A stretch of 64,000 bases of DNA from Marchantia polymorpha subsp. ruderalis. Taxonomy: Eukaryota; Streptophyta; Marchantiopsida; Marchantiales; Marchantiaceae. The DNA is taken from the NCBI GenBank assembly GCA_037833965.1, contig AP031355.1, positions 18,997,501 through 19,061,500 of the forward strand. The letters are read 5' to 3'. Made by a program: the position numbers and the translations under genes. Positions 7,840-43,499 of this stretch are shown piece by piece (position 1 is the first letter of the stretch; each line of letters opens with the position of its first letter). The notes beneath the pieces are model-generated. The model worked only from the letters and a program-made list of their open reading frames with translations. It ran no database searches and had not been told where the DNA came from.

Positions 7840-9714
7840 ATGGACACAAAGATACTTCTTGCAATGGTAATGCTTCTGTTTGTTGTGCTTTTCGTCGGGG
7901 CGAAGGCCCAGAGTGCAGCACCACCCGTTTCACCACATGATGAAGGTATGCCTATCGCTGCTCTTCCTCGTCTGCCTGCCTCTTCTGCTAGTATATATTT
8001 ATGCGCCGCGATGTGAATGCTGGAGTCCTCGAACTGGCATTATACTCCGAGCGTGATAAGTAAGATCATGTCGCGACATAGTGCCATGTTCTGCACTTGC
8101 TAACCTTTCGTGAGACTCTTCTCAACCGAGAACGGGATTCTCAACTCAACTATGTGAGGTGACTCTGTACGTTGCCTCGTCTTGAACAGATTGGGGATGG
8201 TGTATAACCTCGGCCGGTGATAAACCTGTATGCGATGAGATGATCAAGATCTTGGAGGGCTTGGATCCAGAGAAGTCCCACAAGTATTCCTGGTAAATTA
8301 TAATTGCTTCTTGAGATTAGTCTCCGGGAGTAATTGAGTGTAAATCCAAGAAATGCAGTCAATTCTGCACACGTGCATGCTGGTCCTCAGCCTTCATCTG
8401 CCTCTGCAGCGGATGTAGCGAAAGACGAGTGTCAGAATGTTCTTGTCAGAGCGGAAGGCTCCCTCCTAGCAGACCTCCATGTGTTCAATGCAGATTCATA
8501 AGACGAAAGAAAACTCAGATCACGATGTTCCCTTTTGACGTTGTTCCTATTTCTTGACACAGCGTCGTTGGCGAAGGACCCGAGGACTGCATGAAGAAAA
8601 TCAGTGCCGGGGAAGCGAAAATCGGTGTCTTCGATGGAGGCAACATCCGCAAAGCCAGCTCCAAGTATCAGCTGAAGCCTGTTCGTCTCGAGATCACCGG
8701 AACATCTACTGACAAGTACTACTCAGTCGGCATCGTCAAGAGCAGAAACTGCCCCAGAAACCTCGGCTCCCTCAGGGGCAAGCGCTCCTGCCACAGCGGC
8801 TACGGAAGATCTGCCGGATGGACTATTCCCTTGACATTCCTCGTCAACAACAACATCATGCCCGTCATCACCTCGTACACGCTCTTCCCTTGCTTCTCTG
8901 CCACGTGATTATTGGAAGTAATTCGAGTGCAATGTGGGCATGCAGTTGCATCGATCGGAATGCATCGAGTATCTAACATGGCGTTGACTTGGCGGGCATC
9001 GGATGTGTAGCAGCGGACCTAGTTCCAATGACATTCAATCGTTGAAGTATTTCTTCTTGAAGAGCTGCGCCCCAACGAATGACAACACCAAAGCAATCTG
9101 CAGTGCCTGTAAGAACACCACGCGCTGCACGCAGGAAGACGAGTACTACGATTACCATGGGGCATTCCGAGGCCTCGTTGAGGACTAATGCGACATTGCG
9201 TTCACGAAGCACAGCGTTCCGAGTGACTATGCATCCAATGGACCCAATGCGCAGTCAGACTGGGTTGGACTGGGCCCTGCCTCGGACTATGCACTGATGT
9301 GCCCGACTCCGTTGGATGGCGAGAGCTGCACCGACATAGCGAACTACGCCAAGTGCAACTTCGGATCAGCTCCCCCTCATACTGTCTTCGTTTCCGTGAC
9401 CTGGCCTGACCTGGAGCTCAAGGAGTTCCACGCAGTGATGGATGCTGCTAACAATGACCTCGCATTCAACAGACTGTTCTTCCAAGGAAACAACAAAGCA
9501 GGCACCATTTTCGTTGCCGATGCCACTAAAACTTTGTTGCACAGCCGATACTCTCGTCGGCCCTCTCGAGAAGGCTGTGAATTCGCTCGAAGCTATCAAC
9601 GACCTCAAGCCCGTCAACAGCGCTGCATGTGCGCACCATCTGCCTTCTGGTCGCGCTACCGCTGTGGCGCTTGCCGTCTCCAGCATCGTTTGGGCGGCAG
9701 CCAGCACCCTCTGA
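7840..9714 (+). pseudogene. Transferrin-like gene, copy A: stop and frameshift in exon 4
   Basis: It has the same four-exon plan and phases as the intact copies: exon 1 7840-7945 (signal peptide starting MDTKILLAMVMLLF), exon 2 8190-8292, exon 3 8563-8874, exon 4 9014-9714. Exons 1-3 are open. They keep the ligand Asp in VFDGGNIRKAS, the first ligand Tyr in DKYYSVGIVK and the anion-site CHSGYGRSAGW. Exon 4 keeps the second Tyr in YYDYHGAF, then hits TAA at 9186-9188 where the other copies have Ser230. The frame stays readable afterwards (CDIAFTKH, ligand His in APPHTVF) until a frameshift near 9535, after which TADTLVGPLEKAV continues in another frame to a hydrophobic tail. The sequence is clearly more diverged than the other three. 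It is best called a recent pseudogene; expression as a half-lobe cannot be excluded. Confidence 0.88.
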
Positions 9715-10544
9715 GTTCATGGGCCTCAGCTGTTGGATCTCGAGTCCACGTCCTCAAAAATCTCACACATGAAAACCGGGAAATGCCGTGGCGGCTGGCT
9801 TTTGTCTTGCGCACATCTTCGTCAGAACTTGCGAGCAAGAAGATCGGCCGCCATTCCAGAAAATATTAATCTAGTTGAAGACAGCCAGCACGACAGAAAT
9901 GCAGCTGGCTTGTGGAATACTGTCACAAGTCCAAACAAGGACCCGAAGGCGAATTGCACGTCTGCATCATTCTTTACAGTTATCTGTATCTGCATATAGA
10001 AACAATACCAAACCCCAGTCATAGGATATCTGCAATTGTAAAGTTCCGCTGTTACCATCTTCGAATACGATTTTCAGGCCATTCTTTTCACTTAACTTTT
10101 GTTAGACTTCCACAGAACACCGTGTAATACAATTCCTCGTTTCATGAATGGGTGAACATTTCTCACTACATTTATAACGTATGATATTTGGGAGCTTTGT
10201 TTACATTGGAATTGTTGTTGCACAGTGACGGGGAGGGAGTATCGTGTTTATGAAGGCACGAGTGCTATCTGAAAACGATGGCTGAAGTATGTTTTGTACG
10301 GCTGCTCTACACTGCACCAGTATGGATTCTGGGCATAGCTATGAACACTCTTAAATGAATGAATGGTGTAACTCCCTAATTTAGATCCGCTTGCAGAGGC
10401 ATGAGATGCGGAAAGAAATTGCAGGATTCGAAAATCTGAGGGGAGAGCATCATCGTCATATCTAGAGGACTCCACACCTCGTACCGTGGATTCAGTTTTT
10501 CACTTGCTCATCGATGATAATCACAATTTAGCGCTAATCTGTTC

Positions 10545-11360
10545 TTAGAAGTCGGCCCGGAACCCATAAACAGCAGTGAACACATTGCGGTCATAATCGC
10601 CACCAACGCAGTCCGCAATTGCCCTGTAGTCGCCCACAGCGACGAGAAATTTGATCACCTTGAGGCTGGAAACACGGCATTCCAAGTCTCCTGTGTGTGC
10701 TTTAAACTCAGCCTCGTTGTCAATGTCCGGCCGGTAAGAGCACGCCAGAGTAGGTCCACGACTTTATCTCCAATGCGGGATTGGAGAGCACACGCGACGG
10801 CGTACTGTCGGAGCATGCTCAGCTGCAGCATCAGCCTGCATGCCTCTCAAGGCGCGTGCCCGACACGAACGGCGAGTACAAACACAGCGCGAGGATCTGG
10901 TATTAAACTCGGATCCTTGTGTCTGACACAGGAAACCATTCGGGGCAGCTAAGCTTTCCCATCTTCGCCTAAGTCAACAGGCGGAAGCCACTCGCAGTTG
11001 TGTTTGATTCCGGAAAAAATATCAGGAACGAGGGGCAAGGTAAGAAGTTTAGAGGATAAGTTGCAACTTTCATCAGCTATGACGTCAGAGTGACGAACCG
11101 CAGTACGGTCGGACAGTAAGGACAATGTAGCCTATTCTCATATTGGTGGACTGGATGAATGAGTTTGAGAAAGGCTCCACAATAATCTGAACGTGTGATT
11201 TGCCCGGCGCTCCGATTGAGTGACGTGCCCTTGCGGTGTCAACGTCGATGTTATTGCTTTTACCGAAAGGGTTGAAGTCGTCTCTCGACCAAACAACAAT
11301 AGTTCGTAATCTATGAGTTGTATCTGGGGCTGAAATAGGACGAAGCTCTCGTCCTATTTC
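10545..11360 (-). pseudogene. Unrecognised minus-strand coding relic (unit A)
   Basis: I do not recognise this gene. On the minus strand a 72-codon open stretch without an ATG (10763 to 10545) ends in VIKFLVAVGDYRAIADC, GGDYDRNVFTAVYG and a stop, and looks like a last exon. Further upstream (about 11330 to 11095) another open stretch includes VVWSRDDFNPFGKSNNID and MRIGYIVLTVRPYCG. Homologous stretches occur in units B and C, but with different one-base indels and stops, so the reading frame is best kept here. Whether it is a gene or a shared pseudogene is not settled. It sits divergently next to the start of the decayed transferrin copy at 11568. A 12-bp inverted repeat with a 5-nt loop (11332-11360) marks its upstream edge in all three units. 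Confidence 0.4.
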
Positions 11361-11567
11361 TCACCCGAACCATTGCCTCCGAATTTCTGGTGCCAGTAAG
11401 GAACACGATTTGTCTTATAGGCTGGGCTAGCCTTTATAAGCATTGTCATCCTGGAAGACCAGATTCCTCTGAGTCAAAGGCCTCGCTGGAGAGGTGTTGT
11501 CTTGTGTTCGAACTTGCGGGTGGGACCGACTCAGGGGGAGGCAGATTATGTCCTGCAGAAGGAAATC

Positions 11568-12950
11568 ATGGTTGTTCGCTTTGTCATTGGACTGCTGCAG
11601 ATCGCAGTTCTTGTTGGAGCTTCAACACAAAATGCCACTGCTTCTCCAGTGTTTGCCGAAGAAAGATGGATGGATGGATGGATGGATGTGTCAAACCAAT
11701 GATTTCCTTATTGCTGTGTTCTGAGACTTTTATGTTGGACCCATTCGGCTCAACTTAGAAGCAACTATGGCTGACCACGATTGGTTTGGGTACCTCTTGT
11801 ACTGCAAAACCCTTTCAAGTGCATAATTTATCTGCGACCGTAATCATTAGAAATGGCGTGTAAACTCTTCGGACGACAAGCCCACCAGTCGTGATGAAAT
11901 GGTCCGAATTTTGGAACACTTGACCCGGAATCAGCTAACACTTATTTTTGAGAAACATGAAATTCTAGTATCTCGTTGATTTTGAGTTGGATCCCAGCAT
12001 TCATATACAGCTTCCTAGAAGGAGCATGTAAAGACACCTGTTTCTGCGTGCTAATATACGAGTAGAATCTCAAAAGTTACAAACCGACTTGACTGGATTG
12101 TAGAAACCATTCCGGATATAAAATTTCTGAATGGGAAATGAAAAGGCTCTCGCCTTCCACAGCTCAGACAGTATCGATGTATCAGGATGTTGACACAGCG
12201 ATGAAAACCTTCATATCATTTTGAGTGGAGGACTGCATGAAGAGGGTAAATTCTGAAGAGCCCAAGTTGGGTGTCTTCGATGGAGGTAAAATCCGCAAAG
12301 CGAGCAGGACCTACAAACTGAAGCCACTCCGTTTTGAGATCACACTAACTTCCATAGTCGGTCAGCATCGTTAAAAGGAATCCCTGTCCAAGAATACCTC
12401 TTTGCACGACCAGAAGGTCAAGAACTCATGCCACCGCCTTTGTGGAAGAGGTGCAGATCGTCACAGATAAGCACAATTGCTACGCCTCCTTAAATGTCAT
12501 TTCCCATACGCCTCGAGGATGCTGGAGCTCAGAATCAAATTCAGAGACCATACGCTGTAGCGGATACACTGGATCTGGTGCGGTTGCGAGCAGCGATCCT
12601 TCTTCCATGGACATGACCTCCGTGAGGGCCTTCTTGGCCCAGACCAGACACCGCCAACCATTGCGAGGAGTGGTTGCAGGCTTCATGCGATGTGGCTTTC
12701 ACCAAGCACTGCGTCCCGATCGGACCGATGTATGCCCGGCTCGTCCGATCGGGCGACAACTTCGGTCTGCTGCTCGCCACACCATCACCTGTCTGAGTCG
12801 TGGTCCGCTGCGGAGGTGGACGATCGACTCCTCTCTCGTTCAACATTCGTGCACTTCAGGCGAGAGTGCCCACGGATCCATCTTCGGAACTGACCTGCCT
12901 CCGCTGATGTTTTATAACCCGCCATTGGAGCCCCACTATCGCACAAAATG
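11568..12950 (+). pseudogene. Decayed transferrin-like gene, second lineage, copy 1
   Basis: Exon 1 (from ATG 11568) encodes a signal peptide followed by QNATASPVFAEE, matching QNATAPPVSAED of the intact genes. The splice donor expected after it is replaced by an ATGG-repeat tract (about 11664-11687). Exon 2 remains at about 11851-11944 (SSDDKPTSRDEMVRILEHL). Exon 3 remains at about 12225-12440, with EDCMKRVNSEEPKLGVFDGG and KIRKAS, then loses frame near the Tyr-ligand strand. Exon 4 remains include TSVRAFLAQT and CDVAFTKHCV. Multiple frameshifts make it non-functional. It differs from copies A-D throughout, so it is an older paralogue, not a recent copy. Confidence 0.8.
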
Positions 12951-13044
12951 AGAAATTTCTCCTCAGTTGAATGAAGGAATTTTTGTTTATGAAATTTGGA
13001 TTTTATGAAATAGTTGTGTTTAAATAATATTTATTCTCAGTAAA

Positions 13045-16055: not shown

Positions 16056-16847
16056 CTTCTTGCCTCCCCGCTTCCCAACCAGATTGAAGTCCCAGTTTCT
16101 TACCCAGCAGAGGTCCTTGCCAGTGATAAATGGCTTCAGATCGTATAAATTAAAAGGCTACTGCCCATTACGTTGACCCATCATCAAATATCAAATATCA
16201 TTAATATTATTATCACCGAATTCCGTTGACATTGCAGACCAGAATTCCTTGAAATTAGAAGAAGTTTATTACCGGATAAGAGAGGACTCGTGAACTTTGT
16301 GAAAGCCAGAACCAAAATAAGTTCAAAACTTCTTGGAGCTGGAATCGTGGAATCGATTCTTCGATCACCGACGCAGTTTTGCATCTGGAAGTGGAAGTTG
16401 AACGATGCCGGAGTGGTACTTGCCATTGCCGACCAGATTGTGTTCTCCACGAGCATCTAAATGTAGATAAGTTTTTGTTCGAATCAGTGCGTTTGCAACC
16501 GAGATGCCAGCTCCCAGTCCAGATCTGGCCGTCTAATTACAGCTCGACTGGTCAAGGATGAGGGCGTTTCGACCGGCTGTTGTTTTACCCCGAGTTAATA
16601 TCATCGTTCGGCGTTCAGATCCAGTGACGTGCGGCTGATGTGCAAAGTTCAATGGAGAAGTTGACTGTGTTGAAGCAAGCCCCGGGGAACGAGCTGGTGC
16701 TGTGCTAAAAATATGAAAGTTACTGTGACGAAGGATGCGCATCTCGCGGCCCCGGGGAGGCAAAGCTCCTCTGAGGAATCCTTTATTAAGCCCGCTGCGG
16801 TCTTCAATCCCAGACCCCAGAGCTGACTCTCCTCATCATTGTCGGTT

Positions 16848-16949
16848 GTACTTCCTGTACCTTGAGTACCATCCGTACTCTGCTACTCATCCGACAAAGT
16901 ACAGGTGCAACTCGTTTTTCGTAGGGGTCCTCCCATCCTCGACTGGTAC
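16848..16949. promoter_or_regulatory. GTAC cluster upstream of transferrin gene B
   Basis: Six GTAC motifs lie at 16848, 16857, 16866, 16875, 16899 and 16946, about 450-550 bp before the start codon. By chance one GTAC is expected per 256 bp. GTAC is the core recognised by SBP-domain factors (CRR1 in Chlamydomonas, SPL7 in Arabidopsis), which govern copper and, in algae, part of the iron-related response. Binding here is inferred from the motif only. Confidence 0.4.
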
Positions 16950-17393
16950 CTTCTCTAGGTGAGCCTACGCTCAGTAGTGCTCTTAGGATTGTCATCCATT
17001 CCGCGCGGTGTGAATCTGTTACAGTGACTGCATTATACAACAACAGGGAGTACGGACCAGGATTTGATACTACTCCGCAGGAAATGTAGAAATATTAGCC
17101 CGAAGACTTAGAGCCCTGTTTGGAATTTTGTCTGAACTGTGCGTCTGGTACGTTCACGGGTCTAGCTCGAGTTTGAAATTATTCATAGTAATGGCCTGCA
17201 ATCATCTGGAAAAGGAGACAGACATCGCTATGCTCGCATGACTTTGTTCGGTCATCGAAAGGCGTTCCGAACTGGTCCAATGCCTGCAGTTAAATATGTT
17301 GCAGTTTTCAGAGCCGCGAAGACCTGATGTGTTGTCTTTCTCGTGATTCTTTGCAGCAAACCAGCTGCAAGGCGAATCTGCCCAGTCTTGGAG

Positions 17394-19234
17394 ATGGCGA
17401 GTCGTACGTTGCTCAGCGTTTTGTTGTTTGCACTGTTCGTGAGTGCCGCAGCGCAAAATGCCACTGCCCCACCGGTCTCAGCTGAAGATGAAGGTACGAC
17501 ATACGACTCATGACCCCTAGCGGATTTACAGCCACTTTCATCTCCTAGCGAATCTGATGCCGTCTGTTTAGCTTCTACATTCTGCTCCTTCAGACTCAGA
17601 ACCGCAACATCATCTTTTATGCCATTTCTGTTTCTTGCTTCGATGTGTTCTGTCCAATCGAGACTACTGGCCGGTCATCGATCCCAGCTACAAGGATTCC
17701 GCAGTGCTACATTTCAATCACGTCAGATTTCTAAGATTGCATCCGTCGCTCTTTCAGATTGGGGTTGGTGTGTGACGACCGAAGGCGACAATCCGACATG
17801 CCAATCATTGATCACAATCTTGGCAGACCTCGACCCAGAAGCAGCCCACAAGTACTCCTGGTAAGCTAGTGCGACTACCGATCGTGTTCTCGTTTTCATT
17901 GATCTTAACGAATCGTGGGACGAACATGTTCGCTCACATGGATTCCAAAGCCATGAGTGTTGGATTCAAAAGGCAATGCTCATGAATGAATAGAATGAAA
18001 GGCAGGTCAATGTGACGCATTTGGGCCCCAGTTCGGAGGGTGGATTCCCTTTGCCACGGTGTGCCCGAAAGTGGCTGACTGGAGTGAGCGTGCATGAAAA
18101 TGTGCAGCATCGTAGGGGACGGAGCTGAGGACTGCATGAAGAAGATCAACAATGGAGACGCGAAATTCGGAGTGTTCGACGGAGGAAACATCCGCAAGGC
18201 GAGCAACACGTACAATCTGAAGCCAATCCGCATTGAGATCACCGGAACCTCGACCGACAGATACTTCTCGGTGGGTGTGGTGAAGAAGGACAACTGCCCC
18301 AGAAACATCAACGACCTCAAGGGCAAGCGCACTTGCCACAGCGGATACGGAAGAGCGGCAGGATGGACCATCCCCATCACGTACCTCGTCGACAGCAAAA
18401 TCATTCCCGTCGTCACATCGTAAGTTGTCAATCGTAAGATGTGCATCGATTTGCATATTTTGTGTGGACCCATCGATTACTGCAGCTCTGCTCGTGTCAG
18501 ATGTGACAGACCATTATTGATTGATTGTGTCGTGCAGAGGCCCCGCTCAGAACGACATCGAGTCCGTGAAGGCATTCTTCTCCAAGACCTGCGCAGCATC
18601 GAACGATCAGACCAAGGCCGTGTGCTCGGCCTGCAAGACCACGACCGGGTGCACGCAGGAGGACATCTACTACGACTACGAGGGAGCGTTCCGCGGCGTG
18701 GTCGAGGACTCGTGCGACATCGCCTTCACCAAGCACAGCATCCCGATCGATTACGCATCTAACGGCCAGTACGCGCAGACCGGGTGGACTGGGTTGGGCC
18801 CGGCCTCCGACTACGCGCTCCTGTGCCCGACGCCGTTGAACGGGGCGTTCTGCACTGACGTGGCCAACTACGCCGACTGCAACTTCGGCAACGCCCCGCC
18901 GCACACCATCTTCGTCGCCAGCGACTGGCCCGCCGTCGAGGTGCAGGAGTTCCAGGCCGTGCTCGACGCCGCCAACAACGACCCCGCCTTCAACGCGCTC
19001 CTCTTCCAGGGCAAGAACACGGCCGGCTCCATCTTCGTCTCCGACGCCACCAAGACGTTGGCGTACTCCGGCACCGTCGACGCGCTGGTCGCCCCCATCG
19101 AGAAGGCCGCCACCTCGCTCGAGGCCATCAACGCCGCCAAGCCTCCCGCCGGTGCCGCCGCCGGCCTCCTGCCCTCGCTCCTCGGCGTCGTGGCTGCTGC
19201 CACCTCCGGCCTCGTCTTGGCCGCTGCTCTCTAG
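17394..19234 (+). CDS. Single-lobe transferrin-like protein, GPI-anchored (copy B)
   Basis: Exons 17394-17493, 17758-17860, 18108-18419 and 18538-19234 (GT-AG; 1212 nt including stop) give 403 residues. Residues 1-20 are a signal peptide (MASRTLLSVLLFALFVSAAA) followed by an N-glycosylation sequon (NAT). Residues 35-350 form one transferrin lobe. Iron ligands by family alignment are Asp92 (VFDGGNIRKAS), Tyr120 (DRYFSVGVVKK), Tyr219 (YYDYEGAF) and His294 (APPHTIF). The anion site is Ser146/Arg150 in CHSGYGRAAGW; human N-lobe has Thr and Arg. Cysteines are plentiful, as expected of a secreted protein. The last ~27 residues are hydrophobic after a Gly/Ala-rich stretch, with nothing beyond: a GPI-attachment signal. 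Animal transferrins are mostly two-lobed (~700 residues); this has one. The likely role is Fe(III) binding or uptake at the cell surface. Exon 4 is very GC-rich at third positions. A possible leader intron ends at the cag before CAAACC (about 17357). Confidence 0.92.
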
Positions 19235-20076
19235 ACATGAGGATTGCCGTGATTGCTTCGGCCCGTGAGATCTCTACTATATGCATTCTTTCGATAGCGT
19301 TTTGAAGTGCTGAGTTTTCAAGTTTTACGATTCCGGGTGACCATCAGGGCCATCTGTCGTCTACATATAGTCGTCTCGTGTGGCCTCGGATCCCGTAAAG
19401 ATGTGATTTAGGCTGGCTTGTGGAATACTTTCACAAGTCCAAACAAGGACCCGAAGGCGAATTGCACGTCTGCATCATTCTTTACAGTTATCTGTATGTG
19501 CATATAGAAACAATACCAAAACAACCAGGCAGAAGAGTTAGGATTTCTGCAATTGTAAAGTTCTGCTGCTACCATCTTCAAATAAGATTTTCAGACCATT
19601 CTTTTCACTTGACTTTTGTTGGAGTTTCACAGAACACCATGTAATACAATTTCTCGTGTCATGAATGGGTGAACATTTCCCACTACATTTATAACGTATG
19701 ATTCTTCCTAATTTGTTTTTGGGAGCTTTGGTTACATTGGTATTGTTGCACAGTGTAAGATAATACTTTGACGGGGGAGGAGTATCGTGTTTATGAAGGC
19801 ACGAGTGCTATCTGAAAACGATGGCTGAAGTATGTTTAGTACGGCTGCTCTACACTGCACCAGTATGGATACTGGGCATAGCTCTGAACACTATTAAATG
19901 AACGAATGGTGAAACTCCCTAATTTAGATCCACAGAGGCATAAGCTGCGGAAAGAAATTGCAGGGTTCTAAAATTTGAGGGAAGAGCATCATCTTCATAT
20001 CTAGAGGACTCTACACCTCGTACCGTGGATTCAGTTTTTCACTTGCTCATCCATGATAATCACAATTGAGCGCTTA

Positions 20077-20903
20077 TCATTTATTAGTAGTCGGCCCGGA
20101 ACCATACACAGCTGTGAACACATTGCGGTCATAATCGCCACCAACGCAGTCCGCAAATGCCCTGTACACGCCCACAGCGACGAGAAATTTGATCACCTTG
20201 AGGCTGGAAATACGGCATTCCAAGTCCCTGTGTGTGCTTTGAACTCAGCCTCGTTTTCAATGTCCGGCCGGCAGGAGCACGGCAGAGTAGGTCCACGAGT
20301 TTATCTCCAATGCGAGATTGGAGAGCACACGCGACGGCGTACTGTCGGAGCATGCTCAGCTGCAGCATCAGCCTGCATGCCTCTCAAGGCGCGTGCCCGA
20401 CACGAACGGCGAGTACAAACACAGCACGAGGACCTGGTATTAAGCTCGGATCCTTGTGTCTGACACAGGAAACCATTCATTGATGGCAGCTAAGCTTTCC
20501 CATCTTCGCCTAAGTCAACAGGCGGAAGCCACTCGCAATTGTGTTTGATTCCGAAAAAAACATTAGGAACGCGGGCCAAGGTAAGGATAAGTTGAGGATA
20601 AGTTGCAACTTTCGTTAGCTATGACGTCAGAGTGACGAACCGCAGTACGGTCGGATAGTAAGGACAATGTAATCTATTCTCATATTGGTGGACTGGATGA
20701 ATGAGTTTGAGAAAGGCTCCACAATAATCTGGACATTGTGATTTGCCCGGCGCTCCGATTGAGTGAAGTGCCCTTGCGGTGGCAATGTCGATGTTATTGC
20801 TTTTACCGAAAGGGTTGAAGTCGTCTCTCGACCAAACAACAATAGTTCGCAATGTATGAGTTGTATCTGGGGCTGAAATAGGACGAAGCTCTCGTCCTAT
20901 TTC
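20077..20903 (-). pseudogene. Unrecognised minus-strand coding relic (unit B)
   Basis: This is the counterpart of the relic at 10545-11360. The end reads VIKFLVAVGVYRAFADC, GGDYDRNVFTAVYG, then GSGPTTNK and a stop, because one base is missing relative to unit A. A second one-base loss near 20223-20232 breaks the join to the preceding stretch. Upstream the VVWSRDDFNPFGKSNNID stretch is present, with an extra base before its C-terminal half. The 12-bp inverted repeat at the edge (20875-20903) is conserved. Function unknown. Confidence 0.4.
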
Positions 20904-21110
20904 TCACCCGAACCCTTGCCTCCGAAATTATGGTGCCAGTAAGGAACACGATTTGTCTTATTGACTGGGCTAGCCTTTATAAGCATTGTCCTCCTGGAAG
21001 ACCAGATTCCTCTGAGTCAAAGGCCTCGCTGGAGAGGCGTTGTCTTGGGCTCGAACTTGCGGGTGGGACCGACTCAGGGGGAGGCAGATTATGTCCTGCA
21101 GAAGGAAATC

Positions 21111-22332
21111 ATGGTTGTGCGCTTAGTCATTGGACTGCTGCAGATCGCAGTTCTTGTTGGAGCTTCAACACAAAATGCCACTGCTTCTCCAGTGTTTGCC
21201 GAAGAAAGATGGATGGATGGATGGATGTGTTACACTAATGATTTACTTATTGCTGTGTTCTGAGACTGTTCTGTTGGACCCATTCGGCTCCACTAAGAAG
21301 CAACTATGGCTGATCACGATTCGTCTGGGTACCTCTTGTACTGCATAATTTATTTGCGACCGTAATTATTAGAAATGGTGTGTAACCTCTTCGGACGACA
21401 AGCCCACCAGTCGTGATGAAATGGTCCGAATTTTGGAACACTTGACCCGGAATCAGCTAACACCTATTCATTCTTGAGAAACATGAAATTCTAGTATCTC
21501 GCTGATTTTGAGTTGGATCCCAGCATCCATATTCAGCTTACTAGAAGGAGCATGTAAATGCACCTGTTTCTGCGTGCTAGTATACGAGTAGAATCTCAAA
21601 AGTTACAAACCGACTTGACAGGATTATAGAAATCATTTCGAATATAAAATTTCTGAATGGAAAATCTGGCTGTGAATTGAAAAGGCTCTCGCCTTCCACA
21701 GGTCAGACAGTATCGATGTATTAGGATGTTGACTCAGCGATGAACACCATCATTGAATTTTGAGTGGAGGGCTACATGAAGAGCGTCCATTCTGAAGAGC
21801 CCAAGTTGGGTGTCTTCGATGGAGGTAAAATCCGCAAAGCGAGCAGGACCTACAAACTGAAGCCACTCCGTTTTGAGATCACACTAACTTCCATAGTCGG
21901 CATCGTTAAAAGGAATCCTCGTCCAAGAATACCTCTTTCCACGACCAGAAGGGCAAGAACTCATGCCACCGCCTTTGTGGAAGAGGTGCAGATCGTCACA
22001 GATAAGCACAATTGCTACGCCTCCTTAAATGTCATTTCCCACACGCCTCGAGGATGCTGGAGCTCAGAATCAAATTCAGAGACTATATGCTGTAGCGGAT
22101 ACACTGGATCTGATGCGGTTGCGAGCAGCGATCCTTCTTACATGGACATGACCTCCGTGAGGACCTTCTTGGCCCATACCAGACACCGCCAACCAATGCG
22201 AGGAGTGGTTGTAGGCCTCATGCGATGTGGCTTTCACCAAGCGCAGCATCCCGATCGGACTGATGTATGCCCGGCTCGTCCGATCGGCCACAACTTCGGT
22301 CTTCTGCTCCCCACAGCATCATCTGTTTGAGG
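21111..22332 (+). pseudogene. Decayed transferrin-like gene, second lineage, copy 2
   Basis: The signal-peptide exon starts at 21111 (MVVRLVIGLLQIAVLV, then QNATASPVFAEE) and again runs into an ATGG tract instead of a splice donor. Exon 2 remains are at about 21371-21463. Exon 3 remains are at about 21765-21980, where ATG 21774 opens MKSVHSEEPKLGVFDGGKIR; exon 4 remains run to about 22300. Frame is lost after the Tyr-ligand strand, where the other lineage has SVGVVKK. Similarity to copies 1 and 3 stops near 22332, next to the DNA carrying the Harbinger remains, so the 3' end appears to have been replaced or deleted. Confidence 0.8.
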
Positions 22333-23030: not shown

Positions 23031-23034
23031 GGTC

Positions 23035-27060: not shown

Positions 27061-28856
27061 ACCTATCACACAAGTAACCTATCACGTTCATGCAATCTTT
27101 CAAGTTACAGCAAACAACTTCTGATTTACCAAGCCTTTAACACTCGATGCGCACTCCCATGATATGACTGGAAAAAATTAATTTCGTATCCTGCTTTTTC
27201 GGTGTGAGGTTCTTTAACGTGGTTGTTACAATCTAGAACTTGCCCTCAAAGACTACCTTAGAACTCTGTACAGGAGTAAATTCAGTTCAATTCAATCAAG
27301 ACACAATTACACTCAATGAGTTGCATCCTAGAGCCTCTACCATCGAAAAGAGGAATGATCTGTGGGTTCACAGTCTCAGGACCTGGAACCTCAGTGCCAG
27401 TGCATGTGTTTCCACCAAGCTCAAGATCGAAGCATGCCGGAAAAGAAAAAAGAAAAAAGAATCCTTGCTTCTGAATTCAGTTCTGAATTTAGAACTACTG
27501 ACAATGATTGAGCCTTCGAAACTTAGAATGACTCGTCCAGCGTGGTGGACCTCCGCAGATATCTGCTTTGAATGATTCATTATTTAGAAAGTTGATAATC
27601 AGGCTGAGGGTTCCTCGCACGCACTCGATTTCTTGTCACATGTCCGATTCAGAGATGAGGGAAGTAGCGAGATCTCAAAGGGAATTTGCTCGCAGCTCAT
27701 TGTGCGCTTGATTTTCCCGACGGTGTCAGAGGCGAAGGGCGGGGGCACGTATGATGACATCTGAAACCTCGAAGGCACGCGGCGACCTGCGAGACATGCG
27801 GCGGGCTCGCGTCCGGGCATGGCTCACACCGGCGAACTGCAGCATGTCCCACCAAGGCGTGTGGCCCACACGGTCGGCACAGCTCTATCCAATACCGAGA
27901 TACCACGTGAGCCCAGGGCAATGCGGGCGCTTACGCCGCACAGGCGTCCCATCCAGGGGGAGGCGGGATCGAGTCACCGTCCGAAGTCAACGGGGAGGGG
28001 GATTCTAATCTGCACACCACGCAGCAGCGCAACGCCTCCAGTTCCCGGCAGCTGCATCTTCTCGTCGGCTTCTTGCCTCCCCGCTTCCCAACCGGATTGA
28101 AGTCCCAGTTTCTTACCCAGCAGAGGTCCTTGCGAGTGATAAATGGCTTCAGATCGTATAAGATAAAAGGCTACTGCCCATTCCGTTGACCCATCATCAA
28201 ATATCATTAATCATTAACATTATCACAGAATTCCGTTGACATTACAGACCTCAATTACTTGAAGTTTAGAAGAAGTTTATTACTAGATAAGAGAGGACTC
28301 GTGAACTTTGTGAAAGCCAGGACCAAAATAAGTTCAAAACTTCTTGGAGCTGGAATCGTGGAATCGATTGTTCGGTCCCAGACGCAGTTTTGCATCGGGA
28401 AGTGGAAGTTGAACGACGCCGGTGGTAATTGCCATTGCTGACCAAATTGTGTTCTCCACGAGCATCTAAATGTAGATAATTTTTTGTTCGAATCAGTTCG
28501 TTTGCAGCCGAGATGCCAGCTCCCAGTCCAGATCTGGCCGTCTAATTACAGCTCGACTGGTCAAGGATGAGGGCGTTTCGACCGGCTGTTGTTTTACCCC
28601 GAGTTAATATCATCGTTCGGCGTTCAGATCCAGTGACGTGCGGCTGATGTGCAAAGTTCAATGGAGAAGTTGACTGTGTTGAAGCAAGCCCTGGGGGACG
28701 AGCTGGTGCTGTGCTAAAAATATGCAAGTTACTGTGACGAAGGATGCGCATCTCGCGGCCCCGGGGAGGCAAAGCTCCTCTGAGGAATCCTTTATTAAGC
28801 GCTGCGCGGTCTTCAATCCCAGACCCCAGAGCTGACTTTCCTCATCATTGTCGGCT

Positions 28857-28948
28857 GTACCTCCTGTACTTGAGTACCATCCGTACTCATCCGACAAAGT
28901 ACAGGTGCAACTCGTTTTTCGTAGGGGTCCTCCATCCTCGACTGGTAC
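28857..28948. promoter_or_regulatory. GTAC cluster upstream of transferrin gene C
   Basis: Six GTAC motifs lie at 28857, 28866, 28874, 28883, 28899 and 28945, about 470-560 bp before the start codon, and match the clusters of units B and D. The 28874-28886 pair forms an inverted repeat, GAGTAC-5-GTACTC. A further GTACTAC, fitting the SPL7-type GTACTRC element, lies at about 29089. Confidence 0.4.
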
Positions 28949-29414
28949 CTTCTCTAGGTGAGCCTACGGGCAGCAGCACTAGTGTTCTGAGGATTGTCGT
29001 CCATTCCGCGCGGTGTGAATCTGTTACGGTGACTGCATTGCACAGAACGTGAGATACAACAACAGGAAGTACGGACCAGGATTTGAAAGTACTACGCAGA
29101 AATTGTAGAAATGTTAATCTGAAGACTTACAGCCCTGTTTGGAATTTGGTCTGAACTGTGCGTCTGGTACGTTCACGGGTCTAGCTCGGGTTTGAAATTA
29201 TTCATAGTAATGGCCTGCAATCATCTGGAAATGGAGATAGACATCGGTATGCTCACACGATGTTCGTTTTTCGAAAGGCGCTCCGAAGTGGTCCAATGCC
29301 TGCAAGTAAATATGTTGCAGTTTTCTGAGCCGCGAAGACCGACCCTGATGTGTTGTCTTTCTCGTGATTCTTTGCAGCAAACCAGCTGCAAGGCGAATCT
29401 GCACAGTCTTGGAG

Positions 29415-31264
29415 ATGGCGAGTCGTACGTTGCTCAGCGTTTTGTTGTTTGCACTGTTCGTGAGTGCCGCAGCGCAAAATGCCACTGACCCTCCGGTCTC
29501 AGCTGAAGATGAAGGTACGACATACGACTCATGACCCCTAGCGGATTTACAGCCACCTTCATCTCCAAGTGAATCTGATGCCGTCTGTTTAGCTTCTACA
29601 TTCTGCTCCTCCAGAATCAGAACCCCTATATCATATTTTATCCCATTTCTTCTTCTTGCTTCGACTTGTTCTGTCCAATCGAGACAACTGGCCGATCATC
29701 GATCCCAGCTAGAAGGATTCCGCAGTGCTACATTTCAATCACGTCAGATTTCTAAGATTACATCCGTTGCTCTTCCAGATTGGGGTTGGTGTGTGACGAC
29801 CGAAGGCGACAATCCTACATGCCAATCATTGATCACAATCTTGGCAGACCTCGACCCAGAAGCAACCCACAAGTACTCCTGGTAAGCTAGTGCGACTCCC
29901 GATCGTGTTCTCGTTTCAGTGATCTTAACGAATCGTGGGACGAACACGTTCACTCGCATGGATTCCAAAGCCATGAGTGTTGGATTCAAAAGGCAATGCT
30001 CATGAATGACATGAATGAATAGAATGAAAGGCAGGTCAATGTGACGCATATGGGTCCCATTTCGGAGGGTGGATATCCTTTGCGACGGTGTGACCAAAAG
30101 GCTGACTGGAGTGAGTATGCATGAAAATGGTGCAGCATCGTAGGGGATGGAGCCGAGGACTGCATGAAGAAGATCAACAATGGAGACGCGAAATTCGGAG
30201 TGTTCGACGGAGGAAACATCCGCAAGGCGAGCAACACGTACAACCTGAAGCCAATCCGCATTGAGATCACCGGAACCTCGACCGACAGATACTTCTCGGT
30301 TGGTGTGGTGAAGAAGGACAACTGCCCCAGAAACATCAACGACCTCAAGGGCAAGCGCACTTGCCACAGCGGATACGGAAGAGCGGCAGGATGGACCATC
30401 CCCATCACGTACCTCGTCGACAGCAAAATCATTCCCGTCGTCACATCGTAAGTTGTCAATCGTAAGAATGTGCATCGATTTGCATATTTTTCGTGGACCC
30501 ATCGATTTACTGCAGCTCTGCTCGTGTCAGATGTGACAGACCATTATTGATTGATTGTGTCGTGCAGAGGCCCCGCTCAGAACGACATCGAGTCCGTGAA
30601 GGCATTCTTCTCCAAGACCTGCGCAGCGTCGAACGATCAGACCAAGGCCGTGTGCTCGGCTTGCAAGACCACTACCGGGTGCACGCAGGAGGACATCTAC
30701 TACGACTACGAGGGAGCGTTCCGCGGCGTGGTCGAGGACTCGTGCGACATCGCCTTCACCAAGCACAGCATCCCGATCGATTACGCATCTAACGGCCAGT
30801 ACGCGCAGACCGGGTGGACTGGGTTGGGCCCGGCCTCCGACTACGCGCTCCTGTGCCCGACGCCGTTGAACGGGGCGTTCTGCACTGACGTGGCCAACTA
30901 CGCCGACTGCAACTTCGGCAACGCCCCGCCGCACACCATCTTCGTCGCCAGCGACTGGCCCGCCGTCGAGGTGCAGGAGTTCCAGGCCGTGCTCGACGCC
31001 GCCAACAACGACCCCGCCTTCAACGCGCTCCTCTTCCAGGGCAAAAACACGGCCGGCTCCATCTTCGTCTCCGATGCCACCAAGACGTTGGCGTACTCCG
31101 GCACCGTCGACGCGCTGGTCGCCCCCATCGAGAAGGCCGCCACCTCGCTCGAGGCCATCAACGCCGCCAAGCCTCCCGCCGGTGCCGCCGCCGGCCTCCT
31201 GCCCTCGCTCCTCGGCGTCGTGGCTGCTGCCACCTCCGGCCTCGTCTTGGCCGCTGCTCTCTAG
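29415..31264 (+). CDS. Single-lobe transferrin-like protein, GPI-anchored (copy C)
   Basis: Exons 29415-29514, 29779-29881, 30136-30447 and 30568-31264 have exactly the lengths of copy B and encode 403 residues. The iron ligands Asp92, Tyr120, Tyr219 and His294, the anion-site Arg150, the signal peptide and the GPI-type tail are all unchanged. Differences from copy B are very few: Ala26 to Asp just after the signal peptide (NATDPP) and Ala63 to Thr at the end of exon 2 (EATHKYS), plus silent changes, several shared with copy D. The possible leader intron would use the donor gcaagtaaat near 29304. The 3' region differs by a 40-bp hairpin insertion (31311-31351). Expected to work like copy B at the cell surface. 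Confidence 0.92.
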
Positions 31265-31310
31265 ACATGAGGATTTCCGTGATTGCTTCGGCCCGTGAGA
31301 TCTCTTCTAT

Positions 31311-31356
31311 ATGAGTGTAGTGATTTTAGTGTGTATACACTAAAATCATTATATGC
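31311..31356. repeat. Hairpin insertion in the 3' region of copy C
   Basis: Between two TATATG hexamers lies about 35-40 bp absent from copies B and D. Its core (31321-31348) has 12-bp perfect arms TGATTTTAGTGT / ACACTAAAATCA around GTAT. It lies about 50 bp after the stop codon, so it would be in the 3' UTR. Confidence 0.8.
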
Positions 31357-32986: not shown

Positions 32987-33191
32987 TCACCCGAACCATT
33001 GCCTCGAAATTATGGTGCCAGTAAGGAACACGATTTGTCTTATTGACTGGGCTAGCCTTTATAAGCATTGTCCTCCTGGAAGACCAGATTCCTCTGAGTC
33101 AAAGGCCTCGCTGGAGAGGTGTTGTCTTGGGCTCGAACTTGCGGGTGGGACCGACTCAGGGGGAGGCAGATTATGTCCTGCAGAAGGACTC

Positions 33192-34515
33192 ATGGTTGTG
33201 CGCTTTGTCATTGGACTGCTGCAGATAGCAGTTCTTGTTGGAGCTTCAACACAAAATGCCACTGCTTCTCCAGTGTTTGCCGAAGAAAGATGGATGGGTG
33301 GATTGATGTGTTACACTAATGATTTACTTATGGCTGTGTTCTGAGACTGTTCTGTTGGACCCATTCGGCTCCACTAAGAAGCAACTATGGCTGACCACGA
33401 TTGGTTTGGGTACCTCTTGTACTGCATAATTTATTTGCGACCGTAATTATTAGAAATGGTGTGTAACCTCTTCGGACGACAAGCCCACCAGTCGTGATGA
33501 AATGGTCCGAACTTTGGAAACATGAAATTCATGTATCTCGCTCATTTTGAGTTGGATCCCAGCATCCATATGCAGCTTACTAGAAGGAGCATGTAAAGGC
33601 ACCTGTTTCTGCGTGCTAATATACGAGTACAATCTCAAAAGCTACAAACCGACTTGACTAGATTGTAGAAATCATTCCGGATATTAAATTTCTGAATGGG
33701 AAATCTGGCTGTGAAATGAACAGGCTCTCGCCTTCCACAGTTCAGACAGTATCGATGTATCAGGATGTTGGCACAGCGATGAACACCATCATTGAATTTT
33801 GAGTGGAGGACTACATGAAGAGGGTCAATCCTGAAGAGCCCAAGTTGGGTGCTTCGATGGAGGTAAAGTCCGCAAAGCGAGCGGGACCTACAAACTGAAG
33901 CCACTCCGATTTTGAGATCACACTAACTTCCATAGTCGGCATCGTCAAAGGGAATCCCTGTCCAAGAATACCTCTTTGCACGACCAGAAGGGCAAGAACT
34001 CATGCCACCGCCTTTGTGGAAGAGCTGCAGATCGTCACAGATAAGCACAATTGCTACGCCTCCTTAAATGTCATTTCCCATACGCCTCTAGGATGCTGGA
34101 GCTCAGAATCAATTAAGAGATTAAGAGACCATATGCTGTAGCGGATACACTGGATCTGGTGCGGTTGCGAGCAGCGATCCTTCTTCCATAGACATGACCT
34201 CCGTGAGGGCCTTCTTGGCCCAGACCAGTGCGTCAAGCAACGACACCGTCAACCATTGCGAGGAGTGGTTGCAGGCTTCATGCGATGTGGCTTTCACCAA
34301 GCACTGCATCCCGATCGGACCGATGTATGCCCGGCTCGTCCGATCGGCGACAACTTCGGTCTGCTGCTCGCCACACCATCATCTGTCTGAGTCGTGGTCC
34401 GATCGCCACCGTTCTCGTTCAACATTCGTTCACTCCAGGCGAGAGTGCCCACGGATCCATCTTCGCTACTGACCTGCCTCCGCTGGTGTTTTATAACCCG
34501 CCATTGGAGCCGCAC
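33192..34515 (+). pseudogene. Decayed transferrin-like gene, second lineage, copy 3
   Basis: Exon 1 starts at ATG 33192 and ends in a degenerate ATGG-like tract (agatgggtggattgatg). Exon 2 is cut short at about 33453-33523. Exon 3 remains begin near 33806 (EDYMKRVNPEEPKLG) with a one-base deletion before the Asp-ligand strand. The exon 4 remnant is the best preserved of this lineage: TSVRAFLAQTSASSND, then HCEEWLQASCDVAFTKHC, showing that copy 1 lost an internal stretch here. Clearly non-functional. Confidence 0.8.
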
Positions 34516-34630
34516 TATCGCACAAAATCAGATATTTTTCCTTGGTTGAGTGAAGGAATTTTTTCTTTACGAGTTTAGGATTTTATGAAATAGATGTGTT
34601 TAAATCATATTTATTTTTAGTAAGAATGAC

Positions 34631-36904
34631 ACAATTTATCTTTAATATTTATATTATAAACTAAACATTATATGCTTTTATTTTTATTTTTATCACATGT
34701 CATCTAAAGTTCATAGTTTATGATACATCACATAAAAAAAAAATTAAACCTATGAAAATTTTATATTTTATTCAATATTGTTGGAGTAGATTCAATCATA
34801 CTTTCAGTTATTTTCCATATAGGTTTTAATTCATTAGATGAATTTTCTCTATGATGTCTATAATATGACATCATATCAAATTAAAATTATTTTATTAATA
34901 TTATATTTCTATTTCATACATACCAAAATATCATTTCACATTTCATTGTGTTTGTAAGTTTGAAATTCAAATAATGCATCAACTTATTTTAATTTTTTGA
35001 AGAAAAAAAGTTAGGATGCATAATTTAAAATAAAATTCTCATTTGTGATAATTAATATGACTTTTTCATTGTTTCTTGTCATGTATTTGTGAGGGTTGTA
35101 TCTTTTTTATCTTCAAATTATTATTATTTTAAATGAGTAAGGTCATAATTTTTATTTTAAAATAATCATTGTTTTTTTATTTTATTTATACTTTTCTCCT
35201 CCATTTTATTTTAAAAATGATTGTAGATGTAGTTATATTATTTATAATCATACAAAAATTCAACTTTACGAAGCATATTTTACATCTAGACCTGTGACAA
35301 TTGTCTTAATGGTTGTTCCTCATCAAGTTATTAATTTCATTTGCATAATATTCTAGAAAATCTTTATGATGATACACTACCACAAGTACATATTTGATTC
35401 ACACATATATAATTGATTGATATTCAAAGTCCATATAATATTCAATGTGTTAATGAATGTCTCATTTTTTTGTCCAATATCTGATATTCATTCTTGCAAT
35501 TTAAAGAATATTGATTGTCTGAAAATTTTGTGGAAAAGTCACCTTCATTCTAATCCATAAGATAGAATCGATTGTACAAATCAACTATTTTTCTAATAAA
35601 GTGTTTCAAATCTTATACAGCGTTTCAAAACCTTATCCATGAAAAAACAAACTCATGCGAGTGTGTGCAATAATATTTGAAACATAAATTTGAAATAAAC
35701 ACCTATCGTTCATCATAACATGTATCTCTAAAAACTTTCATGCTCTATTTATTTTGTAACCTTTACTTACATGATTTTTTCATAGGAAAGAAAAGATTGA
35801 TTTGATATTTGATCTTTCAAATATCAAGTTTCTTAGTCTTTTTAATCATATTGATAGAGATTAATTTGGTTAACTGGAATTTTCTGTTATTTAATTTTCA
35901 ACGTCTAAATTATTTTCTTTAGGCATTTTACTTTCCTTTTGCAAAAATCATATCTTTCATGTCTTGATGTTATGTACATTTCACAATTATAGATTGTTTT
36001 AACTTTACTTTCAACCATTATTGTGTACAATATTTTGTAATTAATATATTATTTTTCACGTTTTTACAGTAATACAATGTAAGTATGATAAGTATCAAAT
36101 TTTTCAAAATAAAAGTCACTCAATCTAATCATGATATTACACCAGTTTTATGATATTTTTTAATTAAAATTTTTAACGATATTCATATTACATTCTATTT
36201 AGTTGAATTATTTTCTTAAAAATAATATATGTGTTGAAAGAAATATGAATCAATTATTCATATTTTTAAAATATTTAATATTAGGATTAAATAAAAATGA
36301 TACATTCTTATGTCTCTTTTCAACTAAGGATGAAAAACATAATTGATACATCCAACTTCATCATTGAAAGAAGATATGCAGAATTATTTTGCAAATAATT
36401 TACTTCAAATGAAAAGGTTATCTTTTATCATTAAAATTTTGATGAATTATGTATATACACACTTTTAAAAAATAACTCTTGAACATTCAATGAGCTCAAG
36501 AATTTATATCAAGGTTTGACCTCCAATAACTCCAAGAAAAATTATGTCCAATATGAAGATAGATAACGAAACAGTCCCATATTTTGAGTGTCAACAAAGC
36601 ATCATGTGTTGACAATTCAGATAATGATACGAGTAATAATTGTAGTTATTTATGATGATCAAATGAACAATTAACTCTGCTTTTGAGGTATTGAGCAATA
36701 AGCCTTTGTTTTCAAGTTAGAATCAAATTCTATGCAAAAAAGAAACATTTTTTTGGGGGGTTAGATTTGACTATGTTTCATTACATTGAAGTATTCAAAT
36801 TTCATGACTTATGCAATCAAGACTTAATATGTTATAGGATTCATCTCTCTTAAAAGCTGGTTCATGCATCCATCCCATTATTTAACATAATTCTAGTATT
36901 CAAA
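34631..36904. other. AT-rich block between units C and D
   Basis: About 2.3 kb of very AT-rich DNA with no recognisable gene. It interrupts the array: unit D resumes at about 36905, inside the GC-rich 5' block, so the leading 350 bp or so present in units B and C are missing. It may be rotted transposon DNA, but no motif supports that. Confidence 0.5.
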
Positions 36905-38320
36905 AAAGAAAAAGAAATTCCTTGCTTCTGAATTCAGTTCTGAATTTAGTACTGACTATGATTGAGCTTTCGAAACTCAGAATGACTCGTCCAGCGTGGT
37001 GGACGTCGGCAGAATGTCAATAAGAGGATATCTGCTTTGGATGAAGCATTCTTTAGAAAGTTGATTATCAAGCTGAGGTTTCCTCGCACGCACTCGATTT
37101 CTTGTCACCTGTCGGATTCGGAGATGAGAGAAGTAGCAAAGGGAATTTGCTCGCAGCTCCTTGTGCGCTTGATTTTACCGATGGTGTCAGAGGCGAAGGG
37201 CGGGGGCACGTATGATGACATCTGAAACCTCGAAGGCACGCGGCGACCTGCGAGACATGCGGCGGGCTCGCGTCCGGGCATGGCTCACACCGGCGAACTG
37301 CAGCATGTCCCACCAAGGCGTGTGCCCCACACGGTCGGCACAGCTCTATCCAATACCGAAATACCACGTGAGCCCAGGGCAATGCGGGCGCTTACGCCGC
37401 ACAGACGTCCGATCCAGAGGGAGGCGGGATCGTGTCACCGTCCGAGGTCAACGGGGAGGGGAATTCTAATCTGCACACCACGCAGCAGCAGCGCAACGCT
37501 CCAGTTCCCGGCAGCTGCATCTTCTCGTCGGCTTCTTGCCTCCCCGCTTCCCAACCGGATTGAAGTCCCAGTTTCTTACCCAGCAGAGGTCCTTGCGAGT
37601 GATAAATGGCTTCAGATCGTATAAGATAAAAGGCTACTGCCCATTCCGTTGACCCATCATCAAATATCATTAATCATTAACATTATCACAGAATTCCGTT
37701 GACATTTCAGACATCAATTCCTTGGAAGTTTAGAAGAAGTTTATTACCAGATAAGAAAGGACTCGTGAACTTTGTGAAAGCCAGGACCAAAATAAGTTCA
37801 AAACTTCTTGGAGCTGGAATCGTGGAATCGATTGTTCGGTCCCCGACGCAGTTTTGCATCGGGAAGTGGAAGTTGAACGACGCCGGTGGTAATTGCCATT
37901 GCTGACCAAATTGTGTTCTCCACGAGCATCTAAATGTAGATAAGTTTTTGTTCGAATCAGTGCGTTTGCAGCCGAGATGCCAGCTCCCAGTCCAGATCTG
38001 GCCGTCTAATTACAGCTCGACTGGTCAAGGATGAGGGCGTTTCGACCGGCTGTTGTTTTACCCCGAGTTAATATCATCGTTCGGCGTTCAGATCCAGTGA
38101 CGTGCGGCTGATGTGCAAAGTTCAATGGAGAAGTTGACTGTGTTGAAGCAAGCCCTGGGGGACGAGCTGGTGCTGTGCTAAAAATATGCAAGTTACTGTG
38201 ACGAAGGATGCGCATCTCGCGGCCCCGGGGAGGCAAAGCTCCTCTGAGGAATCCTTTATTAAGCGCTGCGCGGTCTTCAATTCCAGACCCCAGAGCTGAC
38301 TCTCCTCATCATTGTCGGCT

Positions 38321-38413
38321 GTACCTCTTGTACTTGAGTACCATCCGTACTCATCCGACAAAGTACAGGTGCAATTCGTTTTTCGTAGGGGTCCTCCCAT
38401 CCTCGACTGGTAC
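38321..38413. promoter_or_regulatory. GTAC cluster upstream of transferrin gene D
   Basis: Six GTAC motifs lie at 38321, 38330, 38338, 38347, 38363 and 38410, about 480-570 bp upstream of the start codon, at the same relative place as in units B and C. Shared ancestry of the units explains the conservation, so it is not independent evidence of function. Confidence 0.4.
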
Positions 38414-38889
38414 CTTCTCTAGGTGAGCCTACGGGCAGCAGCACTAGTGTTCTGAGGATAGTTGTCCATTCCGCGCGGTGTAAATCTGTTACTGTGACTG
38501 CATTGCACAGAACGTGATATACAACAACAGGAAGTACGGACCAGGATTTGAAAGTACACCGCAGAAATTGTAGAAATATTAGCCCGAAAACTTAGAGCCC
38601 TGTTTGAAATTTTGTCTGAACTGTGCGTCTGGTATATTCACGGGTCTTGCTCGGGTTTGAAATTATTAGAAATTCATAGAAATGGCCTGCAATCATCTGG
38701 AAATGGAGATAGACATCGCTATGCTCGCATGACTATGTTCGTTCATCGAAAGGCGCTCGGAACTGGTCCAATGCCTGCAGGTAAATATGTTGCAGTTTTC
38801 AGAGCCGCGAGGACCGACTCTGATGTGTTGTCTTTCTCGTGATTCTTTGCAGCAAACCAGCTGCAAGGCGAATCTGCACAGTCTTGGAG

Positions 38890-40746
38890 ATGGCGAGTCG
38901 TACGTTGCTCAGCGTTTTGTTGTTTGCACTGTTCGTGAGTGCCGCAGCGCAAAATGCCACTGCCCCACCGGTCTCAGCTGAAGATGAAGGTACGACATAC
39001 GACTCATGACCCCTAGCGGATCTACAGCCACTTTCATCTCCTAGCGAATCTGATGCCGTCTGTTTAGCTTCTACATTCTGCTCCTCCAGACTCAGAACCG
39101 CAACATCATCTTTTATGCCATTTCTGTTTCTTGCTTCGATGTGTTCTGTCCAATTGAGACTACTGGCCGGTCATCGATCCCAGCTACAAGGATTCCGCAG
39201 TGCTACATTTCAATCACGTCAGATTTCTAAGATTGCATCCGTCGCTCTTTCAGATTGGGGTTGGTGTGTGACGACCGAAGGCGACAATCCTACATGCCAA
39301 TCATTGATCACAATCTTGGCAGACCTCGACCCAGAAGCAGCCCACAAGTACTCCTGGTAAGCTAGTGCGACTACCGATCGTGTTCTCGTTTTCATTGATC
39401 TTAACGAATCGTGGGACGAACATGTTCGCTCACATGGATTCCAAAGCCATGAGTGTTGGATTCAAAAGGCAATGCTCATGAATGAATAGAATGAAAGGCA
39501 GGTCAATGTGACGCATATGGGTCCCATTTCGGAGGGTGGATATCCTTTGCGACGGTGTGACCAAAAGGCTGACTGGAGTGAGTGTGCATGAAAATGGTGC
39601 AGCATCGTAGGGGATGGAGCCGAGGACTGCATGAAGAAGATCAACAATGGAGACGCGAAATTCGGAGTGTTCGACGGAGGAAACATCCGCAAGGCGAGCA
39701 ACACGTACAACCTGAAGCCAATCCGCATTGAGATCACCGGAACCTCGACCGACAGATACTTCTCGGTTGGTGTGGTGAAGAAGGACAACTGCCCCAGAAA
39801 CATCAACGACCTCAAGGGCAAGCGCACTTGCCACAGCGGATACGGAAGAGCGGCAGGATGGACCATCCCCATTACGTACCTCGTCGACAGCAAAATCATT
39901 CCCGTCGTCACATCGTAAGTTGTCAATCGTAAGATGTGCATCGATTTGCATATTTTGCGTGGACCCATCGATTTACTGCAACTCTGCTCGTGTCAGATGT
40001 GACAGACCGTTATTGATTGATTGTGGCCGTGATTGATTGTGTCGTGCAGAGGCCCCGCTCAGAACGACATCGAGTCCGTGAAGGCATTCTTCTCCAAGAC
40101 CTGCGCAGCGTCGAACGATCAGACCAAGGCCGTGTGCTCGGCTTGCAAGACCACTACCGGGTGCACGCAGGAGGACATCTACTACGACTACGAGGGAGCA
40201 TTCCGCGGCGTGGTCGAGGACTCGTGCGACATCGCTTTCACCAAGCACAGCATCCCGATCGATTACGCATCGAACGGCCAGTACGCGCAGACCGGGTGGA
40301 CTGGGTTGGGCCCGGCCTCCGACTACGCGCTCCTGTGCCCGACGCCGTTGAACGGGGCGTTCTGCACTGACGTGGCCAACTACGCCGACTGCAACTTCGG
40401 CAACGCCCCGCCGCACACCATCTTCGTCGCCAGCGACTGGCCCGCCGTCGAGGTGCAGGAGTTCCAGGCCGTGCTCGACGCCGCCAACAACGACCCCGCC
40501 TTCAACGCGCTCCTCTTCCAGGGCAAAAACACGGCCGGCTCCATCTTCGTCTCCGATGCCACCAAGACGTTGGCGTACTCCGGCACCGTCGACGCGCTGG
40601 TCGCCCCCATCGAGAAGGCCGCCACCTCGCTCGAGGCCATCAACGCCGCCAAGCCTCCCACCGGTGCCGCCGCCGGCCTCCTGCCCTCGCTCCTCGGCGT
40701 CGTGGCTGCTGCCACCTCCGGCCTCGTCTTGGCCGCTGCTCTCTAG
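38890..40746 (+). CDS. Single-lobe transferrin-like protein, GPI-anchored (copy D)
   Basis: Exons 38890-38989, 39254-39356, 39603-39914 and 40050-40746 encode 403 residues. The protein is the same as copy B apart from an Ala-to-Thr change in the Gly/Ala-rich stretch before the tail (KPPTGAAAG). All iron-ligand and anion-site residues are kept. Silent sites agree more with copy C than with B. Intron 3 carries a 16-bp duplication (tgattgattgtggccg region, about 40014-40040) not found in B or C. A possible leader intron has the best donor of the three (ctgcaggtaaat, about 38777) and the acceptor ttctttgcag before CAAACC. The 3' flank is cut off at 40918, so its terminator region may differ. Confidence 0.92.
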
Positions 40747-43460: not shown

Positions 43461-43499
43461 TAATAATGGGCATGAGGCTCATGTTGTGCACGATGCATG

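Follow-up and report, generated by a model that had tools for sequence, protein, structure and literature searches.

What does a tandem array of transferrin-like genes do in a liverwort, and how did it arise? Transferrin is commonly presented as the iron carrier of animals, and among algae Dunaliella counts as the exception. We analysed a window of 64,000 nt from Marchantia polymorpha subsp. ruderalis, a source that bears out the land-plant-type genome of the original prediction, and traced in it a tandem array of three intact genes (copies B, C and D), a broken copy (A) and three relics, spread over about 33 kb.

Structure of the array

The array consists of the following features.

Copy A, broken paralogue: 7840 to ~9702, plus strand (exons 7840–7945, 8190–8292, 8563–8874, 9014–~9702)
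Relic 1, old decayed transferrin gene: 11540–12797, ends approximate, plus strand
Copy B, intact, 403 aa: 17394–19234, plus strand (exons 17394–17493, 17758–17860, 18108–18419, 18538–19234)
Relic 2, old decayed transferrin gene: 21080–22331, ends approximate, plus strand
Copy C, intact, 403 aa: 29415–31264, plus strand (exons 29415–29514, 29779–29881, 30136–30447, 30568–31264)
Relic 3, old decayed transferrin gene: 33160–34391, ends approximate, plus strand
Copy D, intact, 403 aa: 38890–40746, plus strand (exons 38890–38989, 39254–39356, 39603–39914, 40050–40746)
Duplicated block around copy B: 16056–19406 (94.4% identical to 28069–31313, up to 19283; 94.9% identical to 37532–40918)
Duplicated block around relic 1: 9904–12797 (91.5% identical to 19412–22331; recurs after copy C, pairs 89.6–94.4%)

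Each of the copies B, C and D has four exons with AG/GT borders and a spliced frame of 1212 nt with a single terminal stop. The three proteins of 403 residues differ at positions 25, 63 and 376 only, none of which is a ligand, so that the description of three intact, nearly identical genes is confirmed. The protein of copy C is that of MPTK1_5g14940 (P0001) of M. polymorpha subsp. ruderalis, and going by this gene name we take the array to lie on chromosome 5. Self-comparison of the window revealed that the copies lie within duplicated segments, at most 3.9 kb long, with an identity of approximately 90–95%, far beyond chance.

Assignment to the transferrin family

At the sequence level, the identification of the array protein as a true transferrin is firmly supported. 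PF00405 matches residues 37–301 with an E-value of 7.2e-42 and 144.2 bits against a curated cut-off of 20.3, and melanotransferrin is the best PDB match for the single sequence (E 1.6e-62) as well as for a profile of 18 rows (E 1.2e-93), in line with the transferrin-like character predicted from the letters. The original prediction had named a best match to bacterial periplasmic binding proteins as one observation that would speak against it. The bacterial phosphonate-binding family PF12974 reached 26.4 bits, just below its cut-off of 27 and far below the score of PF00405; it stands beside PF00405 in the protein database's precomputed list for P0001, P0004 and P0005. Chance likeness and a periplasmic binding protein are both ruled out by the transferrin matches in Pfam and PDB. 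No FEA-type family was found among the five Pfam families listed at E-values up to 10, a range in which the HMMER filters drop most matches above approximately 0.1. The single PF00405 stretch in 403 residues corresponds to one lobe, in contrast to two in melanotransferrin and three in the triplicated transferrin of Dunaliella. Two structure models were poor (mean pLDDT 46.9 and 50.8), and their matches to transferrin structures, with TM-scores of 0.11–0.36, added nothing independent.

History of the array

Against the live gene, the three relics align in short pieces, which show parts of it. They are 94–95% identical to one another, and a gap of five residues relative to the live protein is common to all three. 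This likeness, together with the common gap, indicates one old death that was copied along with its neighbour, and three separate old deaths are not favoured on the same grounds. The original prediction of three old decayed copies thus holds for the presence of the relics, but their number most likely reflects one multiplied death rather than three decays. Since identity among the relics is close to that among the live-gene blocks, the pair of live gene and dead relative was multiplied as a unit. The block of copy D stops 172 bases past its stop codon, with no relic detected there by self-comparison. Relic 1 lies directly 3' of copy A, at the place expected for a B-type gene; we infer that such a gene once stood before relic 1 and was later lost.

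Copy A has a different history. Identity to copy B is 76% in its exon 3 and 71% in its exon 4, the latter of which is disrupted by a stop codon in frame and a frameshift near position 9545. Translation up to the stop yields P0007, which is MPTK1_5g14910 (231 aa). Over 279 codons, with one stop codon omitted, the comparison of A with B gives dN 0.197 and dS 1.275, and the resulting ratio of 0.154 at this dS argues that copy A was long kept by selection. It seems to have been broken only lately. P0008, from another contig, carries an A-type exon 4 with neither stop nor frameshift, so an intact form of this exon exists somewhere. The copy had been described as freshly broken, which fits the recent look of its lesions but not the gene itself, an old and divergent paralogue (dS to B of about 1.3). 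Across the same 279 codons (exons 3 and 4), third-position G+C amounts to 87% in B versus 68% in A; gene conversion biased towards G+C, acting among the copies that multiplied, could explain the higher value in B.

Selection and exchange among the intact copies

Synonymous changes outnumber nonsynonymous ones among the differing codons of every pair of intact copies (B–C 11/2, B–D 14/1, C–D 5/3). The corresponding NG86 dN/dS values of 0.055 (B–C), 0.022 (B–D) and 0.185 (C–D) are imprecise, as they rest on 13, 15 and 8 differing codons, respectively, and can be lowered by conversion. Introns differ by 5.9% (B–C), 2.4% (B–D) and 4.8% (C–D), and the 1000 bases upstream of the three genes by 3.6–4.6%, with indels. 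These differences bear on the concern that the three copies stem from faulty assembly or from a very recent duplication of no consequence, which their near identity in protein might suggest. Divergence of this size in introns and upstream regions, indels included, is too much for sequencing error, the excess of synonymous change recurs in each pair, and alleles offer no explanation, since the main phase of Marchantia is haploid. We therefore regard such an origin as very improbable.

The three copies are not related uniformly along their length. Over 159 informative sites, the label of the odd copy switches 70 times, compared with 100.9 times in shuffles, and none of 20000 shuffles gave a count as low. 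The odd copy is mostly C at ~17595–17936, and B both before this segment (16081–16796) and after it (18021–18089). Such a mosaic pattern is characteristic of gene conversion or unequal crossing-over, and the combination of low dN/dS with mosaic copies points to selection plus exchange. Going by dN/dS, the data suggest that three live copies have been kept. They do not speak to why there are three, so that selection for dosage, as proposed in the original prediction, finds no backing here. The ongoing birth and death of copies that it had offered as the other reading is backed by the duplicate blocks, the relics and the mosaic pattern, with exchange between copies as an additional process.

Binding site, cysteines and protein ends

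Binding-site residues were read from an alignment to the human lobes, which included all of the 19 database relatives except P0002 and P0019 (17 rows), taking the roles of the aligned residues in human transferrin, as iron ligands or anion site, as our frame of reference. In the rows covering each site, the iron ligands are largely conserved, with Asp in 7/7, the first Tyr in 6/7, the second Tyr in 16/17 and His in 15/16; the anion-binding Arg is kept in 6/7, and the Thr of the anion site is replaced by Ser in 6/7. Aligned to human transferrin, the site residues of P0001 are Asp92, Tyr120, Ser146, Arg150, Tyr219 and His294. All four ligands and the Arg are present in P0001 and in P0003–P0006. 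P0018 is without the first Tyr and the Arg and P0016 without the second Tyr and the His; the family is consequently not uniformly iron-binding.

A cysteine of the lobe has moved. At the position of human Cys194, which we take to pair with Cys118 in human transferrin, 16 of 17 relatives have Gly and the remaining one, P0018, has Cys. A new Cys (residue 231 of P0001) occurs in 15 of the 16 rows extending to this position, with Ser in P0018 and Gly in the four human lobes, and the counterpart of Cys118 is kept in all seven rows covering it. This comparison, in which the rows with a named source organism are from Marchantia and Ceratodon, would be read most simply as a change of disulfide partner in the lineage of these plants.

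Hydropathy profiles of P0001, P0003, P0004 and P0005 display a hydrophobic N-terminus and a hydrophobic C-terminal stretch with 0–1 residue beyond it (0 residues after the C-terminal peak in P0001). Precursors of GPI-anchored proteins carry a hydrophobic stretch at the C-terminal end. The array protein thus probably has signal-like and GPI-like ends, as judged by hydropathy and not by a trained predictor. In P0016, the hydrophobic stretch is followed by a tail of 57 residues and is transmembrane-like in its hydropathy.

Among known proteins, animal melanotransferrin, which is GPI-anchored, matches the Marchantia protein in the Asp, Tyr, Arg, Tyr and His of its N-lobe. The two differ in lobe number (two versus one), and the Marchantia protein is without Cys at human position 194 and has a new Cys nearby.

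Relatives in a moss and a probable streptophyte alga

Each protein search scored the 8000 candidates sharing most words, and the named relatives come from Marchantia, from Ceratodon and from the eukprot entry SM000288S10780, which we take from the style of its name to be the zygnematophyte Spirogloea. Transferrin relatives are accordingly present in the moss Ceratodon and probably in one streptophyte alga. The Ceratodon purpureus proteins M758_11G125800, KC19_11G130300 and M758_3G112300 are 53–54% identical to the Marchantia protein and share its ligands, moved cysteine and hydrophobic end; by gene name, their genes lie on chromosomes 3 and 11. P0003 is close to these moss proteins.

A tree of nine rows separated P0001, P0003, P0004, P0005 and P0018 from the four human lobes with a support of 100/100. 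It is unrooted, includes neither Dunaliella nor invertebrate rows, leaves three of six inner branches open and drew a long-branch warning from the program, with P0018 on a long branch. A recent animal-to-plant transfer into Marchantia is not favoured by this split of plant-type rows from human lobes, small, long-branched and unrooted as the tree is. For another plant, a passage in the review PMC8401529, citing Bai et al. 2016, reports two transferrin genes transferred from insects to Theobroma cacao.

The claim that transferrins are unusual in land plants was half right. Against it stand the transferrin-like proteins of Marchantia and Ceratodon that are already in public annotation, where one name of P0001 begins with 'Transferrin-', and the 2016 animal/plant transferrin study which the review cites. 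Among the literature matches listed, no title concerns transferrins of Marchantia or other bryophytes, although an earlier mention is possible; PMC535811 and PMC4909054 were discarded as transferrin literature, the matching word in the matched text being 'transferring'. The Marchantia array is testable rather than categorically new, and what is worked out here is the history of the array, the single death behind the relics, the mosaicism of the copies and the cysteine shift.

Proposed function

We propose capture of ferric iron at the cell surface as the most likely function of the array protein, a reading that we hold at about even chances. It is suggested by the ligand-complete lobe, the probable surface location and the precedent of Dunaliella. 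The protein would be secreted and tethered by a GPI anchor to the outside of the plasma membrane, where Fe(III) and carbonate would be bound between the two halves of the single lobe via Asp92, Tyr120, Tyr219 and His294, and Arg150 and Ser146 would hold the anion. Fe(III) collected in this way could enter the cell by endocytosis or be handed over to a surface reductase and transporter, and the three copies would most likely increase the amount of protein.

As described in passages of PMC7676907, a transferrin-like protein of Dunaliella is involved in iron transport, and the triplicated transferrin-like protein of Dunaliella salina is placed at the plasma membrane (PMC7676907, PMC3645664; titles in the references of PMC12207447). 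Both proteins belong to the green lineage, although the Dunaliella salina protein is triplicated and that of Marchantia has one lobe, and they are likened here by these descriptions only. Algal phytotransferrin (ISIP2A/FEA) binds Fe(III) with carbonate at the surface and, according to PMC7972479, evolved convergently; it works as proposed for the Marchantia protein, but is of separate origin. Marchantia is also cited, in a passage of PMC6834603, as support for reduction-based Strategy I uptake, which may leave a transferrin route unneeded, or the two routes may coexist.

The same binding site could also serve to hold surface Fe(III) in order to starve microbes instead of feeding the plant, as lactoferrin and ovotransferrin do in animals. 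This iron withholding is the main rival, and it gains from the history of the array, since repeated tandem duplication with gain and loss of copies is common for defence genes. We nevertheless consider it less likely than capture, since a membrane-anchor-like tail fits the cell's own capture better than a shed sequestering agent, and the few amino-acid changes among the copies are unlike the rapid divergence seen in many defence genes. Less probable again is a role in which iron would be a side activity, the protein handling another trivalent metal such as aluminium or acting as a structural or signalling surface protein. That relatives can lose the site, as seen in the ligand losses of P0016, with its transmembrane-like segment and tail, and of P0018, would agree with such a role, whereas the Marchantia protein and P0003–P0006 keep every ligand tested.

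Extended beyond the liverwort, surface capture of ferric iron becomes a broader proposal, in which a single-lobe, surface-anchored transferrin importing Fe(III) without prior reduction was inherited by streptophyte algae and bryophytes, with the liverwort keeping and multiplying it and vascular plants using other routes. We put this forward tentatively, as a possible but doubtful scenario. If true, it would make the reductive and chelate strategies seen in flowering plants only part of the original iron toolkit of land plants. With intact copies that have all ligands, in a liverwort amenable to genetics, and with the moss relatives and the probable algal one, the early use and multiplication of a surface transferrin in land plants becomes testable. 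For studies on the evolution of the site and its support, natural variants are available in the shifted cysteine, the relative that resembles a transmembrane protein and the relatives poor in ligands.

Other features in the window

Just past copy D lies a degraded copia-type retrotransposon (42568–47260) with matches to reverse transcriptase and gag-pre-integrase and a sub-threshold gag match. Its ends are similar (42568–42668 with 46971–47071 and 42716–42901 with 47082–47260), and an inverted repeat of 145 bases, 93% alike, is located within its region (44051–44195 and 44368–44512). Further downstream, on the minus strand, an uninterrupted open frame encodes an ARF-family GTPase (49448–50020; Pfam Arf, E 3.2e-66), and two tRNA-Thr genes with the anticodons CGT and AGT lie 7 bases apart (54178–54330). 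Upstream of the array, a 98-base unit forms a perfect tandem pair in AT-rich DNA (3193–3389).
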